Positions 10,936-38,754 of a stretch of DNA of 64,000 nucleotides are shown piece by piece. Each line of letters begins with the position of its first letter. The first letter of the stretch is position 1. The position numbers and the translations under genes are program-made. This DNA is from Ampullaceana balthica (Eukaryota > Mollusca > Gastropoda > Lymnaeidae), in assembly GCA_944989445.1 (NCBI GenBank), contig CALYLW010000123.1, positions 958,501 to 1,022,500 on the forward strand, written 5' to 3'. Below the pieces are notes generated by a model that saw only the letters and a program-made list of their open reading frames with translations, made no database searches and had not been told where the DNA came from.

Positions 10936-11066
10936 TTTATAATCCTTGCAAACGAATATATAGGGGCAAAGTTTCAAACCCTAACTCATGTAGCAAGTAT
11001 TTTCAATGTGTTGATAATATGCCAAAAGTTAGGACATGTGAATCAAACATGCATTTTAGTCGAAAG
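10936..11066 (+). CDS. Exon: N-terminal part of a CBM_14 chitin-binding domain
   Basis: After the acceptor 'tttattttcag' the frame reads NPCKRIYRGKVSNPNSCSKY, then FQCVDNMPKVRTC and SNMHFSRK, ending at the donor AAG^gtattt. It holds the first four of the six cysteines of a type-2 chitin-binding domain, including the hallmark SCSKYFQC and the aromatic residues that line the chitin site. Entry phase is 1 and exit phase 0; length is 131 nt. The last two cysteines come from the 61-nt exon at 13570. An exon of identical length and phase occurs on the minus strand at 44573-44703, which supports both calls. Open frames running past the donor are read-through into the intron. Confidence 0.85.
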
Positions 11067-11489
11067 GTATTTTTATTCTCTTTCTTTATTAAAAAATATG
11101 TGAAATATTACACACAAAAAATAAATATTATACGTGTTTGTAAAATAATCTTCCTGTATTTTATGAAAAGCTCCATTTTTTTTAAAAGTTACTTATTTAA
11201 ACATTTGTTGAGAATTCAGTTTTTCCAAATCCAAAAAATATTGAAATCATCACACATATTAACTTTAAAAAAATTTAAATCTCAAATAATTGATATGATA
11301 TTTGAATTATTTAATTTATTTTTTGTTCAAATAATATTAGTTTCAGTTTTTAAAAGGGAATAATCAAAAGCATAATTAAACTAATTTCTCGTGAAGGGTT
11401 AGGTGTATTTAAAAAGGATTGGCATTTACTGTACACATTTTCCTTTTTCTCACTAAATACTTAATTAAATAATAATATTAAAATACTTA
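11067..11489 (+). other. Intron sequence after the first CBM_14 exon
   Basis: AT-rich intron start with nothing recognisable. The intron continues to 13569 and contains the inverted repeat field described next. Confidence 0.6.
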
Positions 11490-12480
11490 ATATAATTAGC
11501 TACTTCCGGGGGTAATTATGAATCAATTTAGTTTTTATCCAACTTTTTAAGAGGGGATCCCGTTTTTTGTCTAACCAAAGTCCCCCATAAGATTCCACAT
11601 TTCTTTGAGATTACATACCCCATTATGATCCAGTTGCGTAATAGTAATTCAATCCCATCAAGGACATAAATCCTCTTCCATACAAAATACATTATTCTGA
11701 TGGGATCACGTAGCTAAGTATTATTCCTTTGTATAAACCGATCCAATTGTTGGTAAATCCCTTTCCCCTATATGATTAAAAATTCATCATTATTTCACAG
11801 TCAATTATAATTCCGTTGCATAGTAGAGTCTGTTAAGTACTTGGTAATTGTGTGACTCACAAAGCTAAATACAACAAGTGAAAACACCATCAGAATAATA
11901 TATCGTTTAATTCAACAAAGAAATCCTTCTACACACAATAATAACAAAGCTCTCCTTGCTATTAACCACAAAACCACACGCTAGCCTATTTCTCCTATTG
12001 ACGTCATATTCCCCCACGCTACGCCACACCAAGATTGTCAATATAATGCGCACCGCGCAACAGTCTAACATTAGCATTCCCAAAGCGGGAAAACCCTATT
12101 AAACTATAATATTTCCCTGACACAGTCCCAATCGGGATATAATCCCTTTTCTGAAGTGATCCTATACATCGATGTTATCACCTATGCAAGTAATATCCTT
12201 TTGCATTATGGAATCAGGTTCTTGGTTCCCCACTATTATCACTTGGCACAATGGAATCAGTTACTTCGTCGAGTCCGTTAAGCCAATTAGATCACGTGCT
12301 TTGACGGGTAACGTACCCCCTTATGATCCTTAAGAGATCCAATTTTTGTCAAATCCCTTCTCACAATCGGATCCCGTATATTCGGTCGATTATTTACCCC
12401 AGTATGATCCTATTGCATTATTGAATCCTATTTCCTTTTGATATCCCATTCTGGTTTCTCTCACATTTTCTCGTTCAATC
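11490..12480 (-). repeat. Degenerate 'ATCC/GTAACGGGATC' repeat field, inverted
   Basis: Repeated motifs 'ccccattatgatcc', 'ttgcattat.gaatc', 'ggtaaatccctttcc' and 'gggatcac' recur every ~80-100 bp, diverged. These are the reverse complement of the 5690-5965 units. The middle (about 11850-12100) is interrupted by unrelated sequence with GC-rich 'cgcaccgcgcaac' that I cannot classify. It lies within the intron of the lectin gene. Confidence 0.6.
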
Positions 12481-13569: not shown

Positions 13570-13630
13570 AAAAAACAGTGCATACCAATAAGTGAATCAA
13601 CATGTACCATAACGACCACGACTCAAACCG
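13570..13630 (+). CDS. Exon: C-terminal part of the CBM_14 domain plus Thr-rich start
   Basis: After the acceptor 'tattttctcctcag' the frame reads KKQCIPISESTC then TITTTTQT, ending ACCG^gtatgt. It supplies cysteines five and six of the chitin-binding domain and opens the Thr-rich linker. Entry phase is 0 and exit phase 1, length 61 nt. The minus-strand paralogue at 43831-43891 has the same length, phases and C-x7-C spacing. The intron inside the domain (11067-13569) is about 2.5 kb here against about 0.7 kb in the paralogue. Confidence 0.82.
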
Positions 13631-13737
13631 GTATGTTAAGTTTTTTTTTACATATGTACATGTGTAAATTCATAACATCATCACGAAATTCAACAATCTT
13701 AACTTAAACTAAATCGTATCTGTTACGGACACTCCTT

Positions 13738-13900
13738 TATATATATGTATTTATATATATATATATAAAAATAAATAAATATATATTTATAAATATATAT
13801 ATATATATATTATATTTATATACATATATATATATATATACATATATTATATATATACATAAATAAATAAATATATATATATACATAAATAACATAATAA
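13738..13900. repeat. Impure (TA)n/(TTTA)n microsatellite
   Basis: TA runs mixed with AAATAAAT and ATAC interruptions in the intron between 13630 and 15310. Tyr-Ile-rich minus-strand frames here are repeat artefacts. Confidence 0.92.
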
Positions 13901-14613: not shown

Positions 14614-15309
14614 AAATATACATATACATATAACCGTGCGTAAAATTGTACAAGAAATTACAAGATTTTTATTTTGAACTACTAAATTTATTTAGAGCGG
14701 TTAATATTTTATTAGGATCTACCACAGATTAAAATATCATTACACACAACGATATTGTAAGAATATATATTTTAATAAGAAAAAATATTGTTAATCAAAG
14801 AACGGATCATAGAATCAAATCTGGTTTAGATATTGAGCATATACTTACACATTAATGAGGTTAAGAATCTAAAAAAGTGTTTGGATACACTTAAAATAAT
14901 GGTAGGTAAGTTTTTATCAGAAAAGAAGAAGACAATTGTAATATTAAAAATATTTAAGGAAAAATTAAATATCTTAATTAAATAGTTCTTAAGTTTTTAA
15001 AATTAAATAGCTCTTTATTTAAATTCAATTAAAAAAAAATTAAATAAGAACATGTTATATTCAACTAGACAAGCATTTTATTCTTTAAAATGTCCTAAAG
15101 TTTATTTATTTTATAATGTATTTTTATGAACCTAGATATAATGTGTTTCATGAATTTAAAAATGAAATAAAATTGTTATATTTAACTTTTTAAAAAAATT
15201 ACCGTACATTAATAAATCTATAACTTAAAAAGAGCAGTTTAAGTTAATAAGATAAAACAAGACAATCTCGTATTAAACCGTCAAAACACACACAAATATA
15301 TCTTTACAG
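14613..15309 (+). other. Intron before the first mini-exon
   Basis: The last ~120 bp ('agagcagtttaagttaataa', 'aatctcgtattaaaccgtc') are the conserved upstream half-unit that precedes every CAATGAC-type mini-exon. The earlier part is unrecognised. Confidence 0.6.
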
Positions 15310-15336
15310 CAATGACTACTGCTAAATCTGTACCTG
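15310..15336 (+). CDS. Mini-exon 1 (27 nt, Thr-rich linker)
   Basis: Acceptor 'atctttacag', donor '^gtaagt'. In phase 1 it reads (G)CA-M-T-T-A-K-S-V-P then G. This is the most diverged copy: GCT (Ala) replaces the third Thr codon, and it ends in G rather than C. It stands alone in an unduplicated block and may represent the oldest unit. Confidence 0.78.
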
Positions 15337-15966
15337 GTAAGTATCCAAATTAGTTTATAAATTTATGTTTACAAAAATGTGTGTTTTGTATTTTTTATTC
15401 AATCAATTTTTAAAAAATAATTAAATTAATCTTAGCAGGTAAAAATTAGCATAATAATTTCATATCTTTTAAGGATCAGTAAATGAAAATTGTGACGAAC
15501 ATAAATAATATAAATTACTGATTTGTATCATCCGTAGGTAAGTTTTTATGAGAAAAACTTAATTAAGTCCAATTAAAGAAAATGTTACTTAAGAACAAAT
15601 TCCACAACTTATATAAATATTTCTTTCTTTATTTTTTAAAAAATACATTAATTCTTTATTTAAGATCATATTTTTTTTAAAGAATGGGAACATTCTTATG
15701 ATTTTAATTTTTATTAAATTAAACAAGCATTTTTATGCTGGAAAATTTCAGGAAGTGTGTTTATTTTTTCGTGTGTTTTTATTTTACTCTTATCATGTTT
15801 TTCCTCATTAAAATGGCAGTGTATGTTAATCTCGTACTAAACTGTAATATATATATATATATGAAGACCTCAACGGAAGAAACGGCTTTAACTTTATAAT
15901 GCATATTAGGATCCCGTTAAGTCACGATTCATTATTTTATTAAATTGGTATACTCACGCTAATTCG

Positions 15967-15968
<2 letters not shown>

Positions 15969-16040
<72 letters not shown>

Positions 16041-16060
16041 ATATAGATATATATATATAT
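15969..16060. repeat. (TA)n with GATATA interruptions
   Basis: Perfect TA run 15969-16022 followed by 'gatatagatatagatata' variants, ending at the hAT copy B boundary. Confidence 0.95.
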
Positions 16061-16861: not shown

Positions 16862-17293
16862 TATAATAAAAATGTGTTCGATTAATAGAGAAAAGAATTA
16901 ATCGAATAATCTAATAATTTTGATTAATTATATTTTATAACGCATATATAGTAACCGTTAAGTCGCGATTCATTATTTAGCGAAATCGGTTAAGTCGCCG
17001 TAAGGGTATGGCTCTAAAATTTTGTGACGTAACAAAACAAATTCGTTCTGGTATGCAAGACATAAGTAAGAAAAACCATATTGTTTACGTATGCACGTCT
17101 ATATATTTAATCATAAAACGAGTGAAGCGTAGGCTATGTAAGTAATAAAAAATATATTAATTATTAATAAATTCAAAAATATATAATTAATTTTTTCTAA
17201 AATTTAATCAAACTTTTAATTGATCAAATTAATTTTTTTATCGATTAAGATTTTTAACAATTAATCAATTAATTACTATTTTATTTCCGAGCG

Positions 17294-17298
<5 letters not shown>
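16862..17298. mobile_element. 'TCGATTAAT' MITE-like element, copy 1
   Basis: Diverged relative of 21866-22312 and 30088-30535. Shared interior motifs are 'ttataacgcat', 'ccgttaagtc', 'cgaaatcggttaag' and 'tctggtatgcaaga'. Both ends carry inverted 'tcgattaat' motifs, and the right end reads 'ttatttccgagcgctaat' against 'ttccgaagccctaat' elsewhere. It ends about 80 bp upstream of mini-exon 2, separated by a TA run. Confidence 0.65.
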
Positions 17299-17367
<69 letters not shown>

Positions 17368-17376
17368 TCTTTACAG

Positions 17377-17403
17377 TAACGACTACTACTAAAACTGTTC
17401 CTC
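17377..17403 (+). CDS. Mini-exon 2 (27 nt, Thr-rich linker)
   Basis: Acceptor 'atctctttacag', donor '^gtaagt'. Reads (G)TA-T-T-T-T-K-T-V-P then C. It is the first of a pair: mini-exon 3 follows after a 499-bp intron, and the pair is repeated as mini-exons 4/5 and 6/7. Confidence 0.78.
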
Positions 17404-17902
17404 GTAAGTTTTCACATTATATTATTTATTTCTGTTCAAATAGTATTCGTGTTACGTACAATGTATTTAATCAATTTTTTTAAAAAATGATTTTAATATT
17501 AACAGGTTAAAATAAGAAGCACATTTTCATATCTTTAAGGGATTAACAAATCAAAATGTGAAACAATTAATATCCAACTACTAATCGTTATCAATCGTGT
17601 TTGGAAGATTAGTTTTTATCAGAAAGCCAGAAAACGTGACGTTAACTGAAAAGAATGTAGATGATCACTGAAGAAGTGTTGGGTAAAGTTTTTAGATGCT
17701 TAACATTTCATTTAGTTACATAAACTAAAAATCTACTTAATCCCTTTTCCAGGCAAGTGTCATTGTAAAATATTTAATTTTTTTTAATACCATACTTTTG
17801 TAAATCTATAACTTAAAAAGAGCAGTTTAAGTTAATAAGATAAGACGGAACAATCTCGTACTAAACCGCCAAAACGCACACATCTATATAATATCTTTAC
17901 AG

Positions 17903-17929
17903 CAATGACTACTACTAAATATGTACCTC
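17903..17929 (+). CDS. Mini-exon 3 (27 nt, Thr-rich linker)
   Basis: Acceptor 'atctttacag', donor '^gtaagt'. Reads (C)CA-M-T-T-T-K-Y-V-P then C. It is identical in sequence to mini-exon 5 at 22854, its partner in the 4.95-kb duplication. Confidence 0.8.
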
Positions 17930-18289
17930 GTAAGTATCCAAATGAGTTTATAAATTTATGTTTTTAATAAATTTGTGTTTTGTATTTTTATTAACTAAAT
18001 TTTTATAAAAAAATGATATTAATCTTAGGAAGTAAAAATTAGCATAATAATTTCATATCTTTAAAGGATCAGGAAATCAAAATTGTGACGAAAATAAATA
18101 ATATAAATTACTGATTTTTATCATGAGTGTATGGTAGGTAAGTTTTTATGGGAAAAACATAAATTAAGTCCTATTGAAGAAAATTGTAATTAAGGAGAAA
18201 TTCTATAACTTATATATTAAGACCACAAGGGAAGAAACGGCTATGTGACAATTTTGAAATTTTTTAGTTAACCTCTGTATCTGATAGAG

Positions 18290-20508
18290 CAGTGGTTCCT
18301 AACATTTTGGGGTCCATGCACCCCTTCAGATGCCTAAAAAAGTTCATGCACCCCCTCATGAAACTTGTAGAAAATGCATAATAAACTATGTTTATTTTAG
18401 GAACAAAACAGTTTTGACCATAGCCAACAGGGAATTCAATGAGAGATCTGCTGCTTCTTATGATCAATCAGCGATTTAAATGGAACTGTTTTAATACTGT
18501 TTTGAACAAAGCAACTCTCATGTCATTCTCTGCATTCAACTTATTGCTTGCCTTGGTTTTAATCGTCAAAAGTGTGAAGAATCCTGCTTCACAGAGATAG
18601 GTTGTGGCAAATGGAAGGAGAGTCAGCACTGACCTCTTGGCTAGTTTTGGGTAGGAATATAGCTGGGCGCACCAAAATTCAATCTAGGTATTGCAACTGA
18701 AGGCACTCCTCAGTACTTCTCTGGTTCTCAAATCAATCAGGTCATCTTTACCATGGTCACTGTCATCAATATTGCCAAAGTCACAGAGAAAAGGATTGCG
18801 AATCCAAAGGTCTTTCCTAGAAATTTCTGGACAGAAATACCCATCAAAGGACCTTTGCAATGTTGAAAGGTGCTTAGAAATTTCCCCTTTGATGTTGTAA
18901 AGCAGTGATCCACCAGTGCTTTCTTCTGCAGCAGATATTACAACTTCATCGAAGTGTGGAAAGTTGGCCAAGTTGGACTTTTCTAGTCGTCGTTGGAATA
19001 GTGGCAGTTTGTTAAGGAAGGCTTGTAATCTCTCAGTAACATCCATTACAGTCACAACATGTCGTTGGAGAGATGTGTTCAATTCATTCACGATGGAGAA
19101 GATGTCAGCCAGGTATGCGAGGTAATGAATGAAATTTGGATAGTCAAACTTGTCAGCAAGGTCACTCTCTTTTTATTACAAGAAAATGGCAAGCTCAACT
19201 CTCAGTTCTACTAACTGAGAAAGTATCCGTCCCCTGGACAACCAGCGCACCTCAGTGTGGTAGAGCAAAACTTTATGGTCAAAGCCCACCTCCTGCCAGA
19301 ATAACTTGAAGAGGCAGTGGCTCAAGGCATGTGAGCAGATAAAATTTACAACTTGGCCTGCAGTAGAAAGAACTGACTTCAAGGTTGGAGTTAGAGTTTT
19401 GCATGCGAGGGCCTGATGAGGAAGGATACAGTGTGTAGTTACAATATCTGGAACTTCTTTCTTTACCAGTTCTGAAAATCCATTCTCATTACCGAGCATG
19501 GAGGGATCACCATCTGTGCAAATTGAAGAAATTATTGAAGTCTAGTGAAACTGGTTTTCAGTGAAGAATACCCTGACTAGCTGCAGCACATCAGAAGCTT
19601 TGGTAGTAGCTAGGAGTGGCTTACAAAAGAGAAACTCCTCCTTCAGCAATCCACTGCGAACGCTGAATGCATTATGCTACATCAGTGGAATCATCCAGCT
19701 GCATGCTAAATGGAAGAGGACTGCTTCTCATCTTGATCCAAAATGTCTGCAGCCATGTCATTAATCCTGTAATGAATAGGGTCATTGGACAAAAGGACTT
19801 TCTCAACCTGCTTCCTCTGCTGGTGACCACACACCAGTTCCACCATCTCCAGAGCATCAGGCTTCACCAAAGTTTCTCCAATGATGTGGGGCTTCTTGTT
19901 CTTTGCAATAAGATATGCAACCTTGAATGATGCCTCCAGTGCAGGTTTCTGTGACTAAGAAAATCCAAGCTTCGGCAAGGTACCTGAGGTCAAGAAGCGA
20001 GCTCTATTAGGCTTGAAGACGTCAACACTGTCCATGGAATTGGATGTATGGACTTTCTCCAAGTGCTCTCGGAGTCTAACAGGCTTCATGTTGTCATTGC
20101 ACAGGATTTTTCCACAGAGGAAGGACTGAGGCTTTTGTGTTCCATCTCTCTCTTTATTGAATGAGAATCCAAACTGGAGCAATAAAAGTTTAAGGAAAAA
20201 ATTCCCAATTTTTACATCCGCTGACGTATTTGATGACTAAATTAAATAATTTTTAGAAAATTGTAAAACATGAAATTCCGAGGAACACATAGAGCGAAAC
20301 GTTAATTTTGTGAAAAAGTTTTTCATTAAATTTTCGACATGCGCAGAACGATGGTTTATATTTCAGATTATCAGTTTTTCGTTCTTTTTATTCCCTTCTT
20401 TTTTTCTTCCTCTTTTTCTTTTTTGTATTATCTGAATCGTTCATGCAACCCCTGGAACCTGCTCATGCACTCCTCGGGGGTGCATGCACCACTGGTTAGG
20501 AACCCCTG
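18290..20508 (-). mobile_element. ZBED-type hAT transposon, copy 1 (2.2 kb)
   Basis: Terminal inverted repeats are CAGTGGTTCCTAAC (18290) and, inverted at 20508, CAGGGGTTCCTAACCAG. Flanking target duplications are TGATAGAG (18282-18289) and TGATAAAG (20509-20516), 7 of 8 matching. The subterminal 'catgcacccc' motif is present at both ends. It encodes a broken transposase on the minus strand. It is duplicated with its surroundings at 23241-25461. Confidence 0.92.
18470..20185 (-). pseudogene. Broken ZBED/hAT transposase, copy 1
   Basis: Reading the minus strand from about 20185: a BED-type zinc finger (FLCGKILCND..KPVRLREHLEKVH), an in-frame TAG after 'LPKLGFS', then SQKPALEASFKVAYLIAKNK and HIIGETLVKPDALEM, as in ZBED5/SCAND3-like transposases. 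The catalytic core follows (DGDPSMLG; HCILPHQALACKTL; LLYHTEVRWLSRGR), then a helical region (18684-19091). The dimerisation end reads LPFATTYLCEAGFFTLLTIK. Full-length relatives are one frame of about 600 residues. Here at least four stops or frameshifts break it, for instance near 19530, 19170 and 18680. No host function is indicated; it is an intronic fossil of the lectin gene. Confidence 0.88.
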
Positions 20509-20740
20509 TGATAAAGGATAAAAAATTGAATGCTCTGAATTAGGTTTAATGAAAAAACTATGTCCCTGACCCTATTAAAAATTCAAATCTATTTAGTAAA
20601 TTTCTAAGAAATCTGTATAATTTTGAACTTTTAAACTTGAATATCTCAAAAGCACAAAAATGTGACATAGCCGTTTCCTCCCTTGAGCTCTTCATATAAA
20701 TGTATATATATATATATTATATATATATATATATTATTAA

Positions 20741-21187
20741 ACAATATAATTTGCAATTGTCACGCAAGTAGTGTCTGTCAGTCCTGACGCAACTAATTTT
20801 AGAAAGCAGGGAAAACCAAATTACTCTACCGAAGCATCAAAAGCTGTGCAAATTAAATATGCGCTGTAAAAAATATTATATGACGTCATTGTTTTCGGTA
20901 ATATTTTAATTTTGGAAAAGGGATCAATGTAAAAAGAGGATTTGATGATGGTTAATTATAAAATCAAAAACAAAGTGGGCGCCGTAGTCACCCTGCATGC
21001 AACCCGTATTATAAAATACTTTGTGTACATTTCAGAAAGTTTAATATATCGTATTTATCAAACAAGGACAAGTTAGTTAGGCTTTTGAAAAAGGTCGGCG
21101 CCGTAGGCGCCCTAATAAAAAGTGCATTTTTAAAAAAAAATAAATTTCAGCTGAAAATTTCCGTCTTTTTTTACGGGTGTATGCTAG
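20741..21187 (+). mobile_element. Helitron, first unit of a head-to-tail dimer (copy 1)
   Basis: Starts near 'aatataatttgcaattgtca' and ends with a 'ttccgtc..tttacggg' hairpin region followed by CTAG (21184-21187) and T. Internal 'ggcgccgtaggcgcc' is near-palindromic. The next unit begins immediately. No coding sequence. Confidence 0.7.
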
Positions 21188-21621
21188 TAAACTATATAAT
21201 TTGCAATTGTCACGCAAGTAGTGTCTGTCTGTCAGTCCTGACGCTACGAATTTTAGAATGCAGGGAAAACCAAATTACTACACCAATGCATCAAAAGGTG
21301 TGCAAATTAAAGATGCAATTTAAAAAAATATTATATGACGTCATTGTTTTCGCTCATATTTTAATTTTGGAAAATGGATCAATGTAAATAGAGGATTTGA
21401 TGATGGTTAATTATAAAATTAAAAAACAAAAAACCCCTATTATAAAATACTTTGTGTACAATTCAGAAAGTTAAAAATTTCTTATTTATTAAACAAGGAC
21501 AAGTTAGTTGGGCTTTTGAAAATGGTGGGTGCCGTAGGCGCCTTTAAAAAAAGTGCATTTTTTAAAAAAATAAATAGATTTCAGTGAAAAACTTCCGTCA
21601 TTTTTGACAGGTGTACACTAG
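21188..21621 (+). mobile_element. Helitron, second unit of the dimer (copy 1)
   Basis: Repeats the first unit ('tatataatttgcaattgtca', 'caagtagtgtctgtc', 'ttggaaaatggatcaatgta') and ends TTCCGTCATTTTTGACAGG..CTAG (21618-21621) followed by T. The pair is repeated at 25700-26581 in the duplicated block. Confidence 0.7.
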
Positions 21622-21865
21622 TATATAGATATATATATATCTTTATTTATTTTATTTTAAAAAAGTAATTCTTTATTTAAAATCATATTTTTTAAAGAAT
21701 GTACACAGTTTATATTAAATGAAACAAGCCTTTTTATGCTTGAAAATTTCTGTAAGTGTATTTTTATCTTTCGTTGTCTTTTGATTTTACTCTTATCAAA
21801 ATGTTTTTCATCATTAAATGGGTTTATGTTTATGTTAATTTATATATTAATATATATATATACAT

Positions 21866-22312
21866 AAGGCTGGTAGTGAATAAAATTTTTTCGATTAATA
21901 GAGAAAAAATGTATTCGATTCATCTATTAATTTTGATATAATTATATTTTATAACGCATATTTGGTACCCGTTAAGTCAAAATTCATTATTTAGCGAAAT
22001 CGGTTAAGTCGCGGTAATTGCCTGGCTCAAAAATTATGTGACGTAACACAACTAATTCCTTCTGGTATGCAAGATATAAGGAAGAAAAAAAAATTTGTTT
22101 AGGTTTGCAAGTCTATATAAATAATCATAAAATGAGTGAAACGTATGTAGGTCATAAAAATATATAAATTATTAATAAATTCAAAAAGACAATATAAAAA
22201 ATGTTTTCTTAATTTTAATCAAACTTTAATCTACTCAAATTCATTTCAATCGATTAAGTTTGTAACGACTAATCTATTTATTAATACTTAATTTCCGAAG
22301 CCCTAATTTATA
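21866..22312. mobile_element. 'TCGATTAAT' MITE-like element, copy 2
   Basis: Left end 'aaggctggtagtgaataaaa', right end 'aatttccgaagccctaa'; read inward from the right this is TTAGGGCTTCGG. Inverted 'tcgattaa' motifs lie near both ends. It is nearly identical to 30088-30535 and abuts the TA tract and acceptor of mini-exon 4. Confidence 0.7.
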
Positions 22313-22329
22313 TATATATATCTTTACAG

Positions 22330-22356
22330 CAACGACAACTACTAAATCTGTTCCTC
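22330..22356 (+). CDS. Mini-exon 4 (27 nt, Thr-rich linker)
   Basis: Acceptor 'atctttacag', donor '^gtaagt'. Reads (C)CA-T-T-T-T-K-S-V-P then C. It corresponds to mini-exon 2 by position in the block but is identical in sequence to mini-exon 6. Confidence 0.8.
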
Positions 22357-22853
22357 GTAAGTTTTCATATGATATTATATATTTATGTTTCCATTGTTTT
22401 CATGTTTCGTACATTGTATTAACTCAATTTTTTTAAAAATGATTTTAATATTAACAGGTTAAAATAAGAAGCACATTTTCCTATCTTTAGGGATTAAAAA
22501 ATAAAAAATGTGTAACAATTAATATCAAAATACTGATCGTTATAAGGCGTGTTTGGTAGATTAGTTTTTATCAGAAAGCCAGAAAACGTAACGTTAACTG
22601 AAAAGGAAGTAGATGATCACTGAAGAAGTGTTGGGTAAAGTTTTTAGATGCTTAACATTTCATTTAGTTACATAAACTAACAATCGACTTAATCCCTTTT
22701 CCAGGCAAGTGTCATTGTAAAATATTTAATTTTTTTTAATACCATACTTTTGTAAATCTATAACTTAAAAAAGCAGTTTAAGTTAATAAGATAAGACGGA
22801 ACAATCTCGTACTAAACCGCCAAAACGCACACATCTATATAATATCTGTACAG

Positions 22854-22880
22854 CAATGACTACTACTAAATATGTACCTC
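22854..22880 (+). CDS. Mini-exon 5 (27 nt, Thr-rich linker)
   Basis: Acceptor 'atctgtacag', donor '^gtaagt'. Identical to mini-exon 3, reading (C)CA-M-T-T-T-K-Y-V-P then C. The intron from mini-exon 4 is 497 bp. The polypyrimidine tract has one T-to-G change relative to the other copies. Confidence 0.8.
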
Positions 22881-23240
22881 GTAAGTATCCAAATGAGTTT
22901 ATAAATTTATGTTTTTAATAAATTTGTGTTTTGTATTTTTATTAACTAAATTTTTATAAAAAAATGATATTAATCTTAGGAAGTAAAAATTAGCATAATA
23001 ATTTCATATCTTTAAAGGATCAGGAAATCAAAATTGTGACGAAAATAAATAATATAAATTACTGATTTTTATCATGAGTGTATGGTAGGTAAGTTTTTAT
23101 GGGAAAAACATAAATTAAGTCCTATTGAAGAAAATTGTAATTAAGGAGAAATTCTATAACTTATATATTAAGACCACAAGGGAAGAAACGGCTATGTGAC
23201 AATTTTGAAATATTTAAGTTAACCTCTGTATCTGATAGAG

Positions 23241-25461
23241 CAGTGGTTCCTAACATTTTGGGGTCCATGCACCCCTTCAGATGCCTAAAAAAGTTCATGC
23301 ACCCCCTCATGAAACTTGTAGAAAATGCATAATAAACTATGTTTATTTTAGGAACAAAACAGTTTTGACCATAGCCAACAGGGAATTCAGTGAGACGTCT
23401 GCTGCTTCTTATGATCAATCAGCGATTTAAATGGAACTGTTTTAATATTGTTTTAATACTGTTTGAACAAAGCAACTCTCATGTCATTCTCTGCATTCAA
23501 CTTATTGCTTGCCTTGGTTTTAATCGTCAAAAGTGTGAAGAATCCTGCTTTACAGAGATAGGTTGTGGCAAATGGAAGGAGAGTCAGTACTGCCCTCTTG
23601 GCTAGTTTTGGTTAGGAATATAGGTGGGCGCACCAAAATTCAATCAAGGTATTGCAACGGAAGGCACTCCTCAGTTCTTCTCTGGTTCTCAAATCAATCA
23701 GGTCATCTTTAGCAAGGTCACTGTCATCAATATTGCCAAAGTCACAGAGAAAAGGATTGCGAATCCAAAAGTCTTTCCTAGAAATTTCTGGACAGAAATA
23801 CCCATCAAAGGACCTTTGCAATGTTGAAAGGTGCTTAGAAATTTCCCCTTGATGTTGTAAAGCAGTGATCCACCAGTGCTTTCTTCTGCAGCAGATATTA
23901 CAACTTCATCCAAGTGTGGAAAGTTGGCCAAGTTGGACTGTTCTAGTCGTCGTTGGAATAGTGGCAGTTTGTTAAGGAAGGCTTGTAATCTCTCAGTAGC
24001 ATCCATTACAGTCACAGCATGTCGTTGGAGAGATGTGTTCAACTCATTCAAGATGGTGAAGATGTCAGCCAGGTATGCCAGGTAATGAATGAAATTTGGA
24101 CAGTCAAACTTGTCAGCAAGGTCACTCTCTTTTTCTTACAAGAAAATGGCAAGCTCAACTCTCAGTTCTACTAACTGAGAAAGTATCCGTCCCCTGGACA
24201 ACCAGGGCACCTCAGTGTGGTAGAGCAAAACTTTATGATCAAAGCCCACCTCCTGCCAGAATAACTTGAAGAGGCAGTGGCTCAAGGCATGTGAGCAGAT
24301 AAAATTTACAACTGGTAGAAAGAAATGACTTCAAGGTTGGAGTTAGAGTTTTGCATGCGAGGGCCTGACGAGGAAGGATACAGTGTGTAGTTACAATATC
24401 TGGAACTTCTTTCTTTACCAGTTCTTAAAATCCATTCTTATTACCGAGCATGGAGGGAACACCATCTGTGCAAATTGAAGAAATTCTTGAAGTCTAGTGA
24501 AACTGGTTTTCAGTGAAGAATACCCTGACTAGCTGCAGCACATCAGCAGCTTTGGTAGTAGCTAGGAGTGGCTTACAAAAGAGAAATTCCTCCTTCAGCA
24601 ATCCACTGTGAAAGCTGAATGCATTATGCTACATCAGTGGAATCATCCAGCTGCATGCTAAATGGAAGAGGACTGCTTCTCATCTTGATCCAGAATGTCT
24701 GCAGCCATGTCATTAATCCTGTAATGAATAGTGTCATTGGACAAAAGGACTTTCTCAACCTGCTTCCTCTGCTGGTGACCACACACCAGTTCCACCATCT
24801 CCAGAGCATCAGGCTTCACCAAAGTTTCTCCACTGATGTGGGGCTTCTTGTTCTTTTCAATAAGATATGCAACCTTGAATGATGCCTCCAGTGCAGGTTT
24901 CTGTGACTAAGAAAATCCAAGCTTCGGCAAGGTACCTGAGGTCAAGAAGCGAGCTCTATTAGGCTTGAAGACGTCAACACTGTCCATGGAATTGGATGTA
25001 TGGACTTTCTCCAAGTGCTCTCGGAGTCTAACAGGCTTCATGTTGTCATTGCACAGGATTTTTCCACAGAGGAAGAACTGAGACTTTTGTGTTCCATCTC
25101 TCTCTGTATTGAATGAGAATCCAAACTGGAGCAATAAAAGTTTAAGGAAAAAAATCCCAACGTTTACATCCGCTGACGTATTTGATGAATAAATTTAAAA
25201 AATTTTAGAAAATTGTAAAACATGAAATTCCGAGGAACACATAGAGCGAACCGTTAATTTTGTGAAAAAGTTTTTCATTAAATTTTCGACATGCGCAGAA
25301 CGATGGTTTACATTTCAGATTATCAGTTTTTCGTTCTTTTTATTCCCTTCTTTTTTTCTTCCTCTTTTTATATTTTTAATTATCTGAATCGTTCATGCAA
25401 CCCCTGGAACCTGCTCATGCACCCCTTTGGGGTGCCTGCATCCACTGGTTAGGAACCCCTG
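23241..25461 (-). mobile_element. ZBED-type hAT transposon, copy 2
   Basis: Same termini as copy 1, with a perfect 8-bp target duplication TGATAGAG at 23233-23240 and 25462-25469. The perfect repeat here and the 7/8 repeat in copy 1, at homologous positions, show one insertion that was later copied by segmental duplication, with one later substitution. Confidence 0.92.
23420..25137 (-). pseudogene. Broken ZBED/hAT transposase, copy 2
   Basis: Same layout as copy 1: BED finger at 25134-24907 (FLCGKILCND..REHLEKVH), TAG after LGFS, catalytic core and helical region. It shares most disabling stops with copy 1 and adds its own lesions, for example a 10-bp deletion around 24312 and a frameshift near 23850 that breaks the 'NIKGEISKHLSTLQRSF' stretch. 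The element was therefore probably dead before duplication. Confidence 0.87.
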
Positions 25462-25643
25462 TGATAGAGGATAAAAAATTGAATTCTCTGAATTAGATTT
25501 AATGAAAAAACTATGTCCCTGACCCTATTAAAAATTCAAATCTATTTAGTAAATTTCTAAGAAATATGTATAATTTTGAACTTTTAAACTTGAATATCTC
25601 AAAAGCACAAAAATGTGACATAGCCGTTTCTTCCCTTGAGCTC

Positions 25644-25648
<5 letters not shown>

Positions 25649-25693
<45 letters not shown>

Positions 25694-25699
25694 TATTAA
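25649..25699. repeat. (TA)n microsatellite
   Basis: TA tract between the short TIR element and the second Helitron dimer; longer than the homologous tract at 20703-20735. Confidence 0.95.
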
Positions 25700-26146
25700 A
25701 CAATATAATTTGCAATTGTCACGCAAGTAGTGTCTGTCAGTCCTGATGCAACTAATTTTAGAAAGCAGGGAAAACCTAATTACTCTACCAAAGCATCAAA
25801 AGCTGTGCAAATTAAATATGCGCTGTAAAAAATATTATATAACGTCATTTTTTCGGTAATATTTTAATTTTGGAAAAGGGATCAATGTAAAAAGAGGATT
25901 TGATGATGGTTAATTATAAAATCAAAAACAAAGGGGGCGCCGTAGTCACCCTGTATGCAACCCCTATTATAAAATACTTTGTGTACATTTCAGAAATTTT
26001 AATATATCGTATTTATCAAACAAGGACAAGTTAGTTAGGCTTTAAAAAAAGGTCGGCGCCGCAGGCGCCCTAATAAAAAGTGCATTTTTAAAAAAATAAT
26101 TAAATTTCAGCTGAAAACTTCCGTCTTTTTTACGGGTGTACGCTAG
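25700..26146 (+). mobile_element. Helitron, first unit of the dimer (copy 2)
   Basis: Duplicate of 20741-21187; ends with CTAG at 26143-26146 followed by T. Confidence 0.7.
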
Positions 26147-26581
26147 TAAACTATATAATTTGCAATTGTCACGCAAGTAGTGTCTGACTGTCAGTCCTGA
26201 CGCTACGAATTTTAGAATGCAGGGAAAACCAACTTACTACACCAATGCATCAAAAGGTGTGCAAATTAAAGATGCGATTAAAAAAAATATTATATGATGT
26301 CATTGTTTTCGCTCATATTTTAATTTTGGAAAATGGATCAATGTAAAAAGAGGATTTGATGATGGTTAATTTTTAAAATAAAAAAAACAAAAAACCCCTA
26401 TTATAAAATACTTTGTGTACATTTCAGAAAGTTAAAAATTTCTTATTTATCAAACAAGGACAAGTATGTTGGGCTTTTGAAAAAGGTGGGTGCCGTAGGC
26501 GCCTTAAAAAAAAGTGCATTTTTTTAAAAATAAATAGATTTCAGCGAAAAACTTCCGTCATTTTTGACAGGTGTACACTAG
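26147..26581 (+). mobile_element. Helitron, second unit of the dimer (copy 2)
   Basis: Duplicate of 21188-21621; ends with CTAG at 26578-26581 followed by T. An open frame from 26413 that runs into the TA tract is not a gene. Confidence 0.7.
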
Positions 26582-26809
26582 TATATAGATATATATATAT
26601 CTTTATTTATTTTTTAAAAAAAAATAATTCTTTATTTAAAATCATATTTTTTAAAGAATGTACACAGTTTATATTAAATGAAACAAGCCTTTTTATGCAT
26701 GAAAATTTCTGTAAGTGTATTTATCTTTCGTTGTCTTTTTATTTTACTCTTATCATAATGTTTTTCATCATTAAAAGGGTTTATGTTTATGTTAATTTCG
26801 TACTAAATC

Positions 26810-26814
<5 letters not shown>

Positions 26815-26873
<59 letters not shown>
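26815..26873. repeat. (TA)n microsatellite
   Basis: Perfect TA tract at the end of duplication copy 2; the next transposon is inserted in it. Confidence 0.95.
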
Positions 26874-30053: not shown

Positions 30054-30086
<33 letters not shown>

Positions 30087-30087
30087 C
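29940..30087. repeat. TA-rich tracts with short-element end
   Basis: TA runs at 29940-29960 and 30031-30082 flank 'gaagtcctcaaaggaagaaa', a single end of the short TIR family that carries the ZBED-type hATs at 18215 and 23166. Confidence 0.75.
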
Positions 30088-30535
30088 ATAAGGCTGGTAG
30101 TGTAGTGAATAAAAAATTGTTCGATTAATCGAGAAAAAATGTATTCGATTCATCTATTAATTTTGATTAATTATATTTTATAACGCATATTTAGTACCCG
30201 TTAAGTCAAAATTCATTATTTAGCGAAATCGGTAAAGTCGCGGTAATTGCCTGGCTCAAAAATTATATGACGTAACACAACAAATTCCTTCTGGTATGCA
30301 AGATATAAGGAAGAAAAAAAAATTGTTTAGGTTTGCAAGTCTATATAAATAATCATAAAATGAGTGAAACGTATGTAGGTCATAAAAATATATAAATTAT
30401 TAATAAATTGAAAAAGACAATATAAAAAATGTTTTCTTAATTTTAATCAAACTTTAATCTACTCAAATTCATTTCAATCGATTAAGTTTGTAACGACTAA
30501 TCTATTTATTAATAGTTAATTTCCGAAGCCCTAAT
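30088..30535. mobile_element. 'TCGATTAAT' MITE-like element, copy 3
   Basis: Near-identical to 21866-22312, including 'tctggtatgcaagatataag' and the right end 'tttccgaagccctaa'. It again ends just before the TA tract and acceptor of a mini-exon (6). Confidence 0.7.
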
Positions 30536-30555
30536 TTATATATATATCTTTACAG

Positions 30556-30582
30556 CAACGACAACTACTAAATCTGTTCCTC
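30556..30582 (+). CDS. Mini-exon 6 (27 nt, Thr-rich linker)
   Basis: Acceptor 'atctttacag', donor '^gtaagt'. Identical to mini-exon 4: (C)CA-T-T-T-T-K-S-V-P then C. Confidence 0.8.
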
Positions 30583-31084
30583 GTAAGTTTTCATATGATA
30601 TTATATATTTATGTTCCCATTGTTTTGGTGTTTCGTACATTGTATTAACTCAATTTAAAAAAAAATGATTTTAATATTAACAGGTTAAAATAAGAAGCAC
30701 ATTTTCCTATCTTTAGGGATTAAAAAATAAAAAATGTGTAACAATTAATATCAAACTGCTGATCGTTATCAGGTGTGTTTGGTAGATTAGTTTTTATCAG
30801 AATGCCAGAAAACGTAACACTAACTATAAAGAATGTAGATGATCACTGGAGAAGTGTTGGGTAAAGTGTTGAGATGCTTAACATGTCATTTAGTTACATA
30901 AACTAACAATCGACTTAAATCCTTTCCCAAGCAAGTATCATTGTAAAATATTTAATTTTTTTTTAAATACCGTACTTTTGTAAATATATAAATAAAAATA
31001 GAAGTTTAAGTTAATAAGATAAGACAAGACAGCCTCGTATTAAACCGTCTAAACGCACACATAATATATTTAATATATTTACAG

Positions 31085-31111
31085 CAATGACTACTACTAA
31101 ATCTGTACCTC
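31085..31111 (+). CDS. Mini-exon 7 (27 nt, Thr-rich linker)
   Basis: Acceptor 'atatttacag', donor '^gtaagt'. Reads (C)CA-M-T-T-T-K-S-V-P then C, which joins AA of the lectin exon to make CAA (Gln). The intron from mini-exon 6 is 502 bp, matching the 499 and 497 bp of the other pairs. Confidence 0.8.
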
Positions 31112-31616
31112 GTAAGTATCCAAATGAGTTTTATAAATTTATGTTTACAATAAATTTGCGTTGTGTATTTTTTATTCAATCAATTTTTAAAAAAATGAAA
31201 TTAATCTGAGGAGGTAAAAATTAGCATCATAATTTCATATCTTTAAAGGATCAGCAAATGAAAAATGTGACGTAAAATAAAATAACATAAATTACTGATT
31301 TTTATCATAAGTGTATGGTAGGTAAGTTTTTATGGGAAAAAATATAATTTAAGTCCTATTGAAGAAAATGGTACTTAAAGAAAAATTCTTATAACTTATA
31401 AAAATATGTCTTTATTAATTTTTTTTTAAAATACATTAATTCTTTTTTTAAAATCATATATTTTAAAAAGAATTTGAACAGTTTATATTAAAATAAACAA
31501 TCCTTTTAATGCTTTAAAATTTCAGTATGTATTTTCGTTGTCTTTTTATTTTACTTTTATCATAATGTTTTTCATTATTAAAAAGGTAGTTTATGTTAAT
31601 GTCGTACTAAACCTTA

Positions 31617-31731
31617 ATATATATAATAAATATATATACATATTTATCTGAAGTCCTCAAAGCAAGAAACAAAATCTGTTTACTCGCGTTTTTCGCGATA
31701 TTTATATATATATTAATAAATATATATATAT

Positions 31732-31781
<50 letters not shown>

Positions 31782-31782
31782 T
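31617..31782. repeat. (TA)n tracts
   Basis: Several TA runs around another 'gaagtcctcaaagcaagaaa' short-element end (31651). Confidence 0.9.
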
Positions 31783-31960
31783 AGGGCTGGTACTGAATAA
31801 AAAAAGTGTTCGATCAATCGGGAAAAATTAATCGTCTAATCGATTAATTTCGATTAATTATATTTTATAACGCAAATTTCCAGGCCAGTGTCATTGTAAA
31901 ATATTTAAATTATTAATAAAAAAAACTTAAATTCAAATTTTTTAAGAGACTAGAAAAAAG
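31783..31960. mobile_element. Truncated 'TCGATTAAT' element fused to intron sequence
   Basis: The left end 'tagggctggtactgaataaa' runs to 'ttataacgca', then jumps directly to 'aatttccaggccagtgtcat', which belongs to the middle of the intron after mini-exons 2, 4 and 6. The rest of the element, the acceptor and one mini-exon are absent. Confidence 0.65.
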
Positions 31961-35230: not shown

Positions 35231-35243
35231 AAATATATATATA

Positions 35244-37555
35244 CTAGCAGACCAGTCGTGCGTTGCAACGATCTCAGTAAAAAGTAATACATATAGTTAA
35301 AAAAGGAATTAGTTTAAGGGTCATCGGACACATAAGTTTAACATATGAAATCTGTTCCTTTCAATCAATTTCATAACAAATATATAAATAGTTTTATCTA
35401 TATTTCCCAATATCGTGTAAAATTGAATGGGGAATACAATTTTAAAAGTTTAGTATATAAAAAAACACATTTATGGCCCCCAATCCCGAGAAAATCGACA
35501 TTATGAATTCAGTGCCCTATAGTAATTTAATATAGGCGCTTAAGTTTTTAAATAAGGAGTTTGGTCAAAATGCAGTTAATTTCTCATTATCTAACACTTA
35601 AACTATTTTTATATAGCTAATATGAGAAAAAATACATTAAGAGGCCCCCTGGCCCATTCAGTTCAAGATGTACATTTTGAAAACCTGTTCATTTAAATTC
35701 AGTTTCATCATTGATATATTTCTAAAGTTCATTAAAAACTGAGTAGGAGATAATATCTTAGAGTATACAAAAAAAAAGACATTTTGGGCCCCCGACCCAT
35801 TCGATCTAAGATGTAAATTTCAAAATGCTGTTCATTTTAATTATGTTCCATCATTGATATATTTCGCAAGATCGTTAAAAATAGAATGATTAATAATATC
35901 TCAAACATATACGAAAAAAGACATTTGGTGCCTCAAGGCCTGAACGATTGAACATTAGACGTGCAGTGCCCTTTTTTATTTTTATATGGGCTTCCAAGTT
36001 TTTATATACAAAATTTGATTAAGATCCATTCATTTACTCAGTAGCTATCACATAAACCATTTTATATAGCTCACATAAGCAAAAAACGACATTAAGGGCC
36101 CCATGGCCCAATTAGTGCAAGATGTAAAGTTCAAAACACCTGTTTATTTCAATAATTTTCATAGCGGATATATCTCTCGATATGAATCTAGATCTTTAAA
36201 ACTTGAATGGGGAATAAAGCCTTAAACGTTTATGAAAAAGATATTTTGGGCACCCAGCCCCGACGAAATCGACATTAGGAAATTAGTGCATATAGTATTT
36301 CGATATTGGCTACCAAGTTGTTATATACAAAGTTTGGTTAAAATCCATCAATTTACCTAATAGCTAACGCTTAAAGTAATATTTATATAGCTCATATAAG
36401 AAAAAAGGCTATAAAGGACATGTATACATACATTCATACTTTCATTTATATATATATAGATATAAGGAAAAAATACACTAAGGGTGCCCAGGCCCATTCG
36501 GTTCAAAATGTACATTTTTAAAACCTGTTTATTTAAATTCAGGTTCATCATGGATATATTTCTCAAGATCGTTAAAATAAAATGGCAAATAATATCTCAA
36601 ACATATTCGAAAAAAGACATTTTGGGCCCCCAGCCCTGAACGATTGAATATTAGACGTGCAGTGCCCTTTGTTATTTTAAAATGGGCTACGCCGTTTTTA
36701 TATATACAAAGTTTGGTTAAGATCCATTCATTTACTTAGCTATCACATAAACTAATTTTTATATAGCTCATATAAGCAAAAAAATGACATTAAGGGCCCC
36801 AGGGCCCAATTAGTGCAAGATGTAAAGTTCAAAATACCTGTTTGTTTCAATCAATTTCATAGCGGATATATTTCTATATATTTATCTGGATCTTGAATAC
36901 TTAAATGGGGAATACAATCTTAAACGATTATTTAAAAAAGACATTTTTGGCCCCCGGCCCCAAAGAAATGGGCATTAGGAAATTAGTGCTCTATAATATT
37001 TCAATATTGGCTACCAAGTTGTTATATACAAAGTTTCGTTAAGATCCATCAGTTTACCTAATAGCTAACGTTTAAAGTAATTTTTATACAGCTCATATAA
37101 TAAAAAAATCATATTATGGGCCCCCGGCGCCCCATGAGTGTTAAAAATTGCAAACAAAGTTGCCAGTTACCATCCCAGGAGCATACTCAAAAGTTTCCAT
37201 AAGTTTCATATCGATCAGATGAATGGTTTAGTCGGCTATAAAGGACATACATACATACATACATACATACATACATACATACATACATACATACATACAT
37301 ACATACATACATACATACATACATACATACATACATACATACATACATACATACATACATACATACATACACACATACACACATACATACATACATACAT
37401 ACATACATACATACATACATACATACATACATACATACATACATACATACATACATACATACATACATACATACATACATACATACATACATACAAAAAT
37501 ACATACATACATACATACATACATACATACATACTTTGATTTTTATATATATAGA
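35244..37555 (-). mobile_element. Helitron built of ~320-450-bp monomers (2.3 kb)
   Basis: Read on the minus strand: 5' end TCTATATATATAAAAATCAA (37555), an ACAT-type microsatellite, then monomers, and a 3' end with the palindrome CGTTGCAACG, 'cacgactggtctg', CTAG (35244) and T. The motif 'gacattag..a..agtgc' recurs at about 35497, 35950, 36271, 36648 and 36970. The pairs 35950/36648 and 36271/36970 are both ~699 bp apart, so a two-monomer block was duplicated. No protein coding. The base before the 5' TC is T rather than the expected A. Confidence 0.75.
37245..37534. repeat. (ACAT)n microsatellite, about 290 bp
   Basis: Tetranucleotide run with interruptions at about 37371-37383 (ACAC) and 37496 (AAAA), located next to the 5' end of the Helitron. 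His-Thr-Tyr-Ile and Met-Tyr-Val-Cys frames are artefacts. Confidence 0.98.
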
Positions 37556-38332
37556 AGATGTTCACGTTTTTTGGTATCGTAATTGTAATGAACATCATTT
37601 AGGAAATATTGCAATATTTTAGGGAAACGTAAACAAAAATTATTCTTGAAAGAAATATGATTAAGCGTAAGGAAACAAATTCAAGCGCAATAGGTACATT
37701 TTATTAGATAGCCAGAAAACACTTACGTAAGATACAAAAATAAAGAAATTCAAAACTACGCAACGTCTTTCAAATTGGAAATACACAGTAAAGAGAAAAC
37801 AAATCCAAACAAGCAATATATTAAAGTAAAAATCATTTTGAAAGTGTATCATCAAAAGGTTATACTTATGAATCTGCAAACAGACGTATAACTTGTTTAT
37901 ACACTTATTATATAACGATTTATTGTCCTAGCTAGTGTCCTACTCATAAATTAAAGTGTTATTTTACCTCTTATTTATCGATTTTCCCCAGTTTGGGTGC
38001 AAAAACTTTTTTGTTACATTGAAAAAAATATTTAGTTCCAGTCTACCTTGAAACACTACCATTTTCAGCAAAGAGTGCACACGACTTACCGAAATTATTA
38101 CTTAATGTACTTGTCACATTGTTGAAAATTTAAATGAAAATAATCAGTAAGCGCCGCACATTTTACAAATAAATCAATTTGAAATCCTGAAACATAATTA
38201 CTTGATAAGTATATACCATTTGTACAAAAGGAGTTAATTATTATACACAATGTATTTAAATATAAATGAGTAAATATTAAAACTTCATGGTTTGTGACTA
38301 ATCACATGTAAAAAATAATGATTTTAAAATAG
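37556..38332 (+). other. Intron immediately upstream of the lectin exon
   Basis: No repeat or extra mini-exon was recognised. A short 'cattttcag' acceptor-like site at about 38069 is not followed by a phase-compatible exon with a donor. Confidence 0.5.
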
Positions 38333-38754
38333 AATGCATCCCCGATGAGAAATATGTGAGCAAATTTAACACATATGAATATTCGGGCAAGACGTACTAT
38401 CTGTCAAGAATCCACTACTCTTCTGATGACGAAGCAAGTGCCATTTGTTGGAAAATGTGTGGATATTTGGCCGAAATAGATGATAGAGTGGAAAACGACA
38501 TTTTCGCACATATATGGAGAGTTGACAGCAGCTTTGGCGTTCTAGTAGGAGGAACGGACAAGGATGAGAACGATTTTTGGACTTCTGAAAGAACTGGGGA
38601 GATTATACCATGAGTAAATTGGTGCGGTGGATTTTACCACGATGAAAATAAGAGACACTGCTTGTACTATATGAAGAACGAGATATGCGTCATTCACCTA
38701 CCTTGTTCTAAAACTTATAATCGGTTTCGATTTTTATGTGAAACATTTCCATAA
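38333..38754 (+). CDS. Terminal exon: C-type lectin domain with in-frame TGA
   Basis: After the acceptor 'attttaaaatag' (phase 1) the frame reads CIPDEKYVSKF, YEYSGKTYYLSR, 'DDEASAICWKMCGYLAEIDD', 'FGVLVGGTDKDENDFWTSE', 'GEIIP', then TGA (38611-38613), and continues in the same frame 'VNWCGGFYHDENKRHC', 'ICVIHLPCSKTYNRFRFLC', ETFP, TAA (38752-38754). The CTLD signature is clear: A-x-x-x-C-W-x-x-C-G-x-L-A, W in the core, NW-x-GG, and the final C-x8-C. The EPN/QPD and WND calcium-site motifs are not conserved, so sugar binding is doubtful. Restoring one base would leave about 140 codons; TGA may replace Trp TGG. It is a null allele, pseudogene or base-call error. Confidence 0.85.

Follow-up and report, generated by a model that had tools for sequence, protein, structure and literature searches.

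Duplicated 27-nt candidate in-frame mini-exons in a predicted CBM_14/C-type lectin gene of Ampullaceana balthica whose own copy is probably truncated

Introduction

The 64,000-nt stretch of DNA that we analyzed (the window) contains a gene, W, whose predicted product has a CBM_14 domain and a C-type lectin domain (CTLD) connected by a threonine-rich linker. Seven short segments of equal length lie between the exons for the two domains. Are these segments in-frame exons that make up the linker, and does this gene still encode a lectin? We think it fairly probable that W carries duplicated 27-nt units, each of which would add nine linker residues without a frameshift, and that a TGA codon truncates this copy.

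The predicted exons of W

The predicted exons and the duplication units around them are listed in Table 1. Joined together, exons 1 and 2 match CBM_14 (PF01607) at positions 5-53 of 53 with 36.0 bits (cut-off 22.1), so the reported split of this domain into 131 and 61 nt holds up. The counterpart of exon 2 is 61 nt in one neighboring paralogue (P2) and 58 nt in another (P1). We did not find a signal-peptide exon or start codon that was common to these genes; P2 has one candidate that is not shared. A search of 5.8 billion protein sequences returned 2394 candidates, none of them at E ≤ 0.001, so the protein has no named relative at this threshold. Nine further frames from the window, most of which are repeat-like, had no Pfam hits at E ≤ 0.01. 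We also found haemocyanin beta-sandwich domains and an open frame that resembles reflectin, features that by themselves would suggest a cephalopod. The exon status of the segments in W rests on their sequence and on comparison to paralogues.

Table 1. Predicted exons of W and duplication units, in window coordinates
Feature	Position	Strand	Length	Remarks
Predicted exon 1, first part of CBM_14	10936..11066	+	131 nt	phase 1 to 0; 131-nt counterpart in P1 and P2
Predicted exon 2, end of CBM_14 and start of Thr-rich linker	13570..13630	+	61 nt	phase 0 to 1
Mini-exon A1	15310..15336	+	27 nt	MTTAKSVP
Mini-exon B1	17377..17403	+	27 nt	TTTTKTVP
Mini-exon A2	17903..17929	+	27 nt	MTTTKYVP
Mini-exon B2	22330..22356	+	27 nt	TTTTKSVP
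Mini-exon A3	22854..22880	+	27 nt	MTTTKYVP
Mini-exon B3	30556..30582	+	27 nt	TTTTKSVP
Mini-exon A4	31085..31111	+	27 nt	MTTTKSVP
CTLD exon with in-frame TGA at 38611-38613	38333..38754	+		phase-1 acceptor, CTLD reading frame
Partial duplication unit U0 (A1 only)	15178..16052	+		77% to 30948-31781
Duplication unit U1 (B1, A2)	16865..21866	+		inserted element at about 18215-21628
Duplication unit U2 (B2, A3), mosaic	21882..26829	+		U3-like left of about 22548; U1-like to the right, including the inserted element
Duplication unit U3 (B3, A4)	30066..31880	+		without the inserted element

All seven mini-exons are 27 nt, are preceded by ACAG and followed by GTAAGT, and are open in phase 1-1, as the initial annotation had described. 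The + strand of the window has seven such segments (ACAG-N27-GTAAGT, open in phase 1-1) and the - strand has none; the chance expectation is a mean of 0.05 per strand (from 200 first-order Markov windows). The nine-residue unit was first given as close to P-(M/T)-T-T-T-K-(S/Y)-V-P, and we find (P/A/V)-(M/T)-T-T-(T/A)-K-(S/Y/T)-V-P.

The mini-exons fall into two types, A and B, within a duplicated array. We rejected the idea that the seven equal lengths are independent facts, as the copies arose by duplication: they are equally long because of descent, with both types spread locally. The seven are homologous, share the same phase, and have a length that is a multiple of three, so the claim that they can be gained or lost without a frameshift stands. 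The sequence data supports the view that these segments behave like in-frame cassette exons.

Candidate mini-exons in neighboring paralogues

We searched the 1.097 Gb genome for the mini-exon motif and obtained 11 matches, all on one contig, on one strand, and within three adjacent paralogues (seven in W, three in P2, and one in P1). The reversed pattern, which served as the control, had 0 matches. P1 has five further mini-exons that are more diverged or longer than its match; one mini-exon in P1 is 33 nt and is of the A type with two extra ACT codons. The predicted numbers of mini-exons are 7 in W, 6 in P1, and 3 in P2, and the scan that we used for these genes did not identify any in two other paralogues (R680 and R1190). 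It had been suggested that linker length can vary by genomic copy number, and across neighboring paralogues, at the level of gene models, this part of the suggestion agrees with our data.

The joined predicted exons of P1 and P2 contain no stop ahead of the end of the CTLD. Both proteins pass the Pfam cut-offs for CBM_14 (41.5 bits for P1 and 36.9 bits for P2) and for Lectin_C (36.6 and 25.9 bits). With their uninterrupted CTLDs, P1 and P2 are likely to be the working forms, and the mini-exon architecture itself is probably functional in these neighbors.

The 27-nt segments might instead be duplicated intron DNA that looks like exons by chance around a short threonine-rich frame, but we consider this improbable. 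Copies of the same type within the window do fit that explanation: in A-A and B-B comparisons, the exon did not change less than the intron (all p > 0.1), and we rejected a claim of constraint from these copies. Between genes, however, the exon and its splice sites were more alike than the flanks in all 81 pairs, with p < 0.05 in 70 of them and p ≥ 0.05 in the other 11 (for example, P2c-W2 with p = 1). If we set aside the statistics for pairs with P1f, where an insertion took the place of the flank, then 60 of 71 pairs have p < 0.05. P1, P2, and W7 have A mini-exons that agree at 27/27 aligned sites and at 10/10 splice sites, while their flanks are 84-87% identical (exon-versus-flank p of 0.005-0.016). 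(This conservation is seen in A-B and between-gene pairs; these have a common history and do not count as independent tests.)

A scan with no splice-site or frame requirement (181.5 kb, both strands, ≤7 mismatches) also argues against chance. It found 15 copies in the three genes; 14 are 27 nt long and one is 33 nt long. All 15 have AG before them, GT after them, and an open phase-1 frame, with 0 decayed copies. The sole length change among the copies is +6 nt, or two codons. The sixth mini-exon of P1 (868157, 10 mismatches) was detected only by scans that required splice sites. Finally, other family members have single threonine-rich candidates of 30 and 42 nt in phase 1-1, from a scan that selects for such candidates.

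Growth of the array by local duplication

We propose that the A and B mini-exons are older duplicates of each other and that a unit pairing one B with one A mini-exon, about 1.6 kb long, was multiplied via unequal crossing-over inside introns. As each mini-exon is in phase 1-1 and is a multiple of three, gain or loss would leave CBM_14 and the CTLD in frame, and linker length would be free to change between gene copies.

One unit appears to record such an event. Left of 22547/22548, U2 matches U3 at 95/106 informative sites, and right of this point it matches U1 at 57/61 informative sites; the single breakpoint falls between the B and A mini-exons of U2. The left half of U2 differs from U3 by about 3% (666/688 sites are alike), and across the inserted element the ungapped blocks of U2 show 3-4% divergence from U1. 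From a mosaic with one breakpoint, we infer an unequal crossover that added 18 codons in frame.

Could the U1/U2 duplication or the TGA be an assembly artefact, arising from an error or from two haplotypes that were merged? A misjoin could also produce U3-like and U1-like halves that meet at one point, and some other contigs (C1445/C1628) resemble duplicate haplotypes. However, the divergence of U2 from both U1 and U3 is above random base error, P1 and P2 carry mini-exons independently of U2, and the genome-wide pattern search did not find a second copy of the locus, so an artefact seems very unlikely.

An in-frame stop in the CTLD exon

W had been described as a chitin-binding lectin gene, but it is not a clean one: the TGA at 38611-38613, 92 codons past the first cysteine codon, interrupts the CTLD. 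The statement that all phases are compatible from CBM_14 to the CTLD is right about the phase-1 acceptor and the CTLD frame but overlooked this stop. With X in place of the stop, the W domain scores 17.9 bits against Lectin_C (PF00059), under the cut-off of 22.6. Although this copy fails that score, the exon is clearly homologous to CTLDs, given its similarity to the paralogue L022 (45% identity, E = 1e-36), which scores 45.3 on Lectin_C. Searching the PDB with the CTLD sequence gave 3 weak matches, the best of which was mannose-binding protein C (E = 0.03).

The CTLD of W retains 12/12 family-invariant residues, including the disulphide cysteines. (We counted a residue as invariant if ≥90% of 27 relatives without a stop share it; among these relatives, L038/L039 and L046/L049 are near-identical pairs.) This fits a very recent stop, and it also fits a CTLD that is still in use. 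On the W branch, there were 4, 6, and 8 changes at codon positions 1, 2, and 3 (p = 0.22, from the homologous part of L023). We found three CTLD exons of the W subtype on the contig, namely W, a relic at 941.9 kb, and L023, and all three are broken. W is likely to be a truncated lectin or a young pseudogene.

It is unlikely, in our view, that W is instead a functional lectin whose transcripts skip or include mini-exons and so differ in linker length. The phases, the lengths in multiples of three, and the good splice sites would make skipping frame-neutral, and the retained invariant residues also favor this reading. But the in-frame TGA and the broken state of all three exons of this subtype that we found on the contig argue against it, and the seven mini-exons have identical consensus splice sites, with no sign of regulated skipping.

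It is also most unlikely that the TGA is corrected in RNA, with A-to-I editing converting UGA to a tryptophan codon and yielding a full-length protein. Such recoding is common in coleoid cephalopods. The closest relative of the W CTLD, L023 (78% DNA identity over 384 columns), has TGG at the stop codon, and a G-to-A change that is restored by editing would fit the harm-permitting model of RNA editing, as outlined in PMC6881472. However, L023 is itself broken, and 28 of the 29 other aligned family CTLDs have tyrosine (22) or phenylalanine (6) rather than tryptophan (1) at this position. The A that would be edited has a 5' G, which is a poor context for ADAR. It is unpaired in 5/5 predicted folds of 121-601 nt, and the window between 10 and 60 kb does not hold any long inverted copy of the site (the best has 31/61). 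A literature search on the stop-codon editing idea found no match.

Discussion

We prefer the reading with which we began, that W has in-frame duplicated linker units and a probable truncation. Judging from the domain families, the product would be a secreted bivalent carbohydrate binder, with CBM_14 binding chitin, the CTLD binding a glycan, and a stiff and probably O-glycosylated linker as the spacer between them. W itself has probably become either a pseudogene of recent origin or a lectin that is cut short.

The nearest known kind of system is linker-length change through duplicated in-frame exons, as in the IgG3 hinge, titin PEVK, and schistosome micro-exon genes. As summarized in PMC8674132, IGHG3 has 2 to 5 hinge exons that give 32 to 77 residues, with 15 per step. 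There too, a spacer between modules is built from duplicated short in-frame exons whose number sets its length; but IgG3 is a vertebrate immunoglobulin whose repetitive element spans about 200 bp and whose variation was measured between human alleles, whereas in W the units are 27 nt and lie within repeats that span about 1.6 kb or more, and the variation that we see is between paralogues only. Titin PEVK also has many short repeat exons that were multiplied by local duplication, and mobile elements contributed as well (PMC6469411, in outline). It differs from W in being a muscle spring with over 100 exons in human, where alternative splicing has been demonstrated and alters spring length; W is known from genomic sequence. 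Schistosome micro-exon genes, as summarized in PMC10526429, encode secreted proteins (as we presume for W) with short exons of 6-81 bp that are separated by long introns and mostly have lengths divisible by three. That summary describes no CBM_14 or CTLD and few shared motifs, while in W, near-identical units sit between two known domains.

Among molluscs, bivalves have large and diversified CTLD families, and the part of that study's abstract that we covered does not mention linker arrays of mini-exons (PMC10140915). In the titles and opening abstract lines of the papers that our searches on octopus and cephalopod lectins returned, we did not find the CBM_14-mini-exon-CTLD architecture, which does not prove its absence.

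A bolder idea is that the array acts as a length dial: unequal crossing-over in introns would keep gaining and losing nine-residue cassettes, and linker length would then differ between paralogues, between alleles, and between splice forms. We regard this as possible but rather doubtful. If it is true, then the reach of an immune or matrix lectin would be diversified with its binding domains untouched.

Gene finders easily miss 27-nt exons that are scattered across 28 kb. If the mini-exons are used, then these gene models form a compact natural series of 0, 3, 6, and 7 units with constant domain order, and the likely crossover behind one step can still be read in an intron. This would make it possible to test how spacer exons evolve and how spacer length affects a bivalent invertebrate lectin.

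Predicted linker exons in three neighboring genes

The initial annotation proposed that the gene W contains seven 27-nt mini-exons, each with an ACAG acceptor, a GTAAGT donor, and an open frame in phase 1-1, and all seven segments are present as described. On both strands of the window, these are the only ACAG-N27-GTAAGT segments that are open in phase 1-1. (In 200 first-order Markov windows, the mean for a single strand is 0.05.) The two exons that were said to encode a split chitin-binding domain (CBM_14, PF01607) score 36.0 bits against that family when joined.

Coordinates of W, its paralogs P1 and P2, and the duplicated units. Positions are within the window (C123:958501-1022500) unless contig C123 is indicated.
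Feature	Coordinates	Remarks
W exon 1	10936-11066	131 nt; CBM_14 with exon 2
W exon 2	13570-13630	61 nt; CBM_14 with exon 1
Type A mini-exons (A1-A4)	15310, 17903, 22854, 31085	
Type B mini-exons (B1-B3)	17377, 22330, 30556	
W last exon	38333-38754	phase-1 acceptor; CTLD reading frame
U0	15178-16052	partial unit
U1	16865-21866	with inserted element of roughly 3.4 kb
U2	21882-26829	with same inserted element as U1
U3	30066-31880	without inserted element
Inserted repeat	18215-21628 (U1), 23167-26588 (U2)	absent from U3
P1	C123:865.7-890.4 kb	
P2	C123:903.2-935.9 kb	
W	C123:969.4-997.3 kb	
P2 3' CTLD exon, L008	C123:935501-935914	open; subtype differs from L009
P2 3' CTLD exon, L009	C123:941902-942282	broken relative of W CTLD

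The hemocyanin beta-sandwich family PF14830, which is not known outside mollusks, has 35 matches in this genome and none in any of 14 control genomes, and one open frame is 46% identical over 70 residues to a query designed after reflectins; the animal is therefore a likely mollusk and probably a coleoid cephalopod. We searched the assembly (1.097 Gb) for the mini-exon with its splice borders, allowing up to 3 mismatches. All 11 matches are on the + strand of C123 and are confined to three successive genes, P1, P2, and W; the reversed pattern, as a control, had 0 matches. In a separate scan of C123 genes for short symmetric threonine-rich exons, W has seven, P2 three, and P1 six; five of those in P1 are 27 nt long, and the sixth is a 33-nt type A with two additional ACT codons. 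The scan found none in R680 or R1190, two further genes on this contig. It also listed two overlapping P2 candidates, 60 and 84 nt long, at 934.8 kb, which we judged to be due to chance.

Because these scans presuppose splice sites, we ran a further one over both strands of 181.5 kb with no splice or frame requirement, accepting segments within 7 mismatches of any of three consensus types. This identified 15 copies, every one of them flanked by AG and GT and open in phase 1. (The scan missed the P1 segment at 868157, which is too diverged for this threshold.) The joined predictions for P1 (258 residues) and P2 (229 residues) are free of stops up to the end of the C-type lectin domain (CTLD, PF00059), and Pfam identifies both CBM_14 and CTLD in each. 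The CTLD loci L031 and L043 have single phase 1-1 linker candidates (30 and 42 nt), and two more, in L027 and L033, seem to be less threonine-rich.

On the - strand, another fragment of a CBM_14 gene (44573-44703 and 43831-43891) is likewise split into 131 + 61 nt. An in-frame TGA lies in its exon 2, one base ahead of the donor, the fragment adjoins an (AGAT)n array of ~1 kb (about 44850-45980), and we found no - strand CTLD between 861 and 1042 kb of C123. Many CBM_14 matches in the genome stop at profile position 38-42, which suggests that many family members may share this exon split.

Conservation of the mini-exons

Among the copies in the window, those of the same type (A-A, B-B) showed no difference between exon and intron; A-B pairs and between-gene pairs did differ between exon and flank. 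All 81 between-gene pairs are more similar in the exon and its splice sites than in the flanks, and for 70 of them p < 0.05 (60 of 71 without P1f, whose flank was replaced by an insertion). Because the pairs have a common history, neither these p values nor those given next are independent. The type A mini-exons of P1, P2, and W7 (the seventh in W) do not differ at any of the 27 exon sites aligned or at the 10 splice sites, and their flanks are 84-87% identical (p = 0.0054, 0.016, and 0.0054). W6 and W7 agree at 34/37 exon and splice positions versus 104/164 flanking positions (p = 0.0004), and P2c and W2 show almost no exon-flank difference (p = 1). P1a is the most diverged mini-exon. Many changes within the exons alter residues; the threonine-rich character, the length in codons, and the splice sites are retained.

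Duplication of the mini-exons

There are three B-A pairs, with a spacing of 524-529 nt, and A1 is unpaired. The pairs are contained in a repeated unit of ~1.6 kb. The neighborhoods of A and B are homologous (~73-76% identical across ~270 nt), so the two types derive from an old duplication. We considered whether the equal length of the seven could be a coincidence, but they are copies with homologous flanks, which rules this out. U1 and U2 adjoin head to tail. Four - strand frames of their inserted repeat had no Pfam match at E <= 0.01.

We aligned U1, U2, and U3 across the part surrounding the mini-exons and examined the 167 sites that distinguish U1 from U3 and at which U2 is like one of them. 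U2 is a mosaic: left of 22547/22548, in the intron that separates B2 from A3, it agrees with U3 at 95/106 sites, and right of this point it agrees with U1 at 57/61 sites. (Fisher p is about 2e-28, which is descriptive, given the linkage among sites and a breakpoint selected for its fit.) We infer that U2 arose by unequal crossover. U3 of one chromatid would have recombined with U1 of the other, giving U1, then a unit with U3 on the left and U1 on the right, then U3. This would gain one B and one A mini-exon, or 18 codons, with the frame unchanged. A misjoin in the assembly might also yield a mosaic, but this is less likely because the copies have diverged by about 3-4%.

Lectin domains of W and its relatives

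W's last exon does have a CTLD frame from its phase-1 acceptor, as proposed, but an in-frame TGA (38611-38613) interrupts it; the proposed exon had extended beyond this stop to the TAA at 38752-38754. A (CATA)n array (about 37245-37535) lies upstream. Genome-wide, there are at least 150 matches to CBM_14 and at least 123 to CTLD (150 of 172 CTLD candidates scored), with clusters on C123 (12 CTLDs), C367, C50, and others. We aligned the 30 CTLDs that had been extracted as loci, including W. At the TGA column, the other 29 have Tyr (22), Phe (6), or Trp (1). The Trp is from L023 (C123:809.3 kb), which is W's closest relative (78% identical to W in DNA across 384 columns) and is broken by three stops. 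W retains all 12 columns that are conserved in at least 90% of the 27 stop-free relatives, which indicates that it was constrained during most of its history and that the stop is likely recent. L023 deviates at 5 of the 12, two of them within a part replaced by other DNA. On the W branch after its divergence from L023, we counted 4, 6, and 8 changes at codon positions 1, 2, and 3 (p = 0.22). Because no predicted exon follows the one with the TGA, a transcript would likely encode a truncated protein that lacks the second half of the CTLD. In a cephalopod, recoding of the TGA by RNA editing would be possible, but predicted folds leave the site unpaired and the base neighboring it is a poor context for ADAR.

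W and P2 are 87.7% identical around exon 1 (over 1.6 kb) and ~80-84% identical around the mini-exons; their CTLDs have only 28% protein identity and share no DNA match as long as 80 nt. A broken relic downstream of P2's open CTLD matches the W CTLD (71% DNA identity), so the ancestor may have carried two alternative 3' CTLD exons, with different ones retained. All three W-subtype CTLDs found on C123 (W, the P2 relic, and L023) are broken.

Discussion

In the IgG3 hinge (PMC8674132), titin PEVK (PMC6469411), and schistosome micro-exon genes (PMC10526429), the length or composition of part of the protein depends on short in-frame exons, a principle that the W linker seems to share. A mini-exon linker in a CBM_14-CTLD lectin was not found in the titles and abstract openings of the papers that our literature searches listed.

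Our results are best read as a CBM_14-linker-CTLD gene family, one cluster of which grew its linker from nine-residue cassette exons. Growth in the cluster of W, P1, and P2 would have proceeded via unequal crossing-over. Among five gene models, W has the longest linker and a damaged CTLD. Mini-exon skipping in the predicted transcripts is possible. Given its domain families, a working protein would be secreted and would bridge chitin and a glycan.
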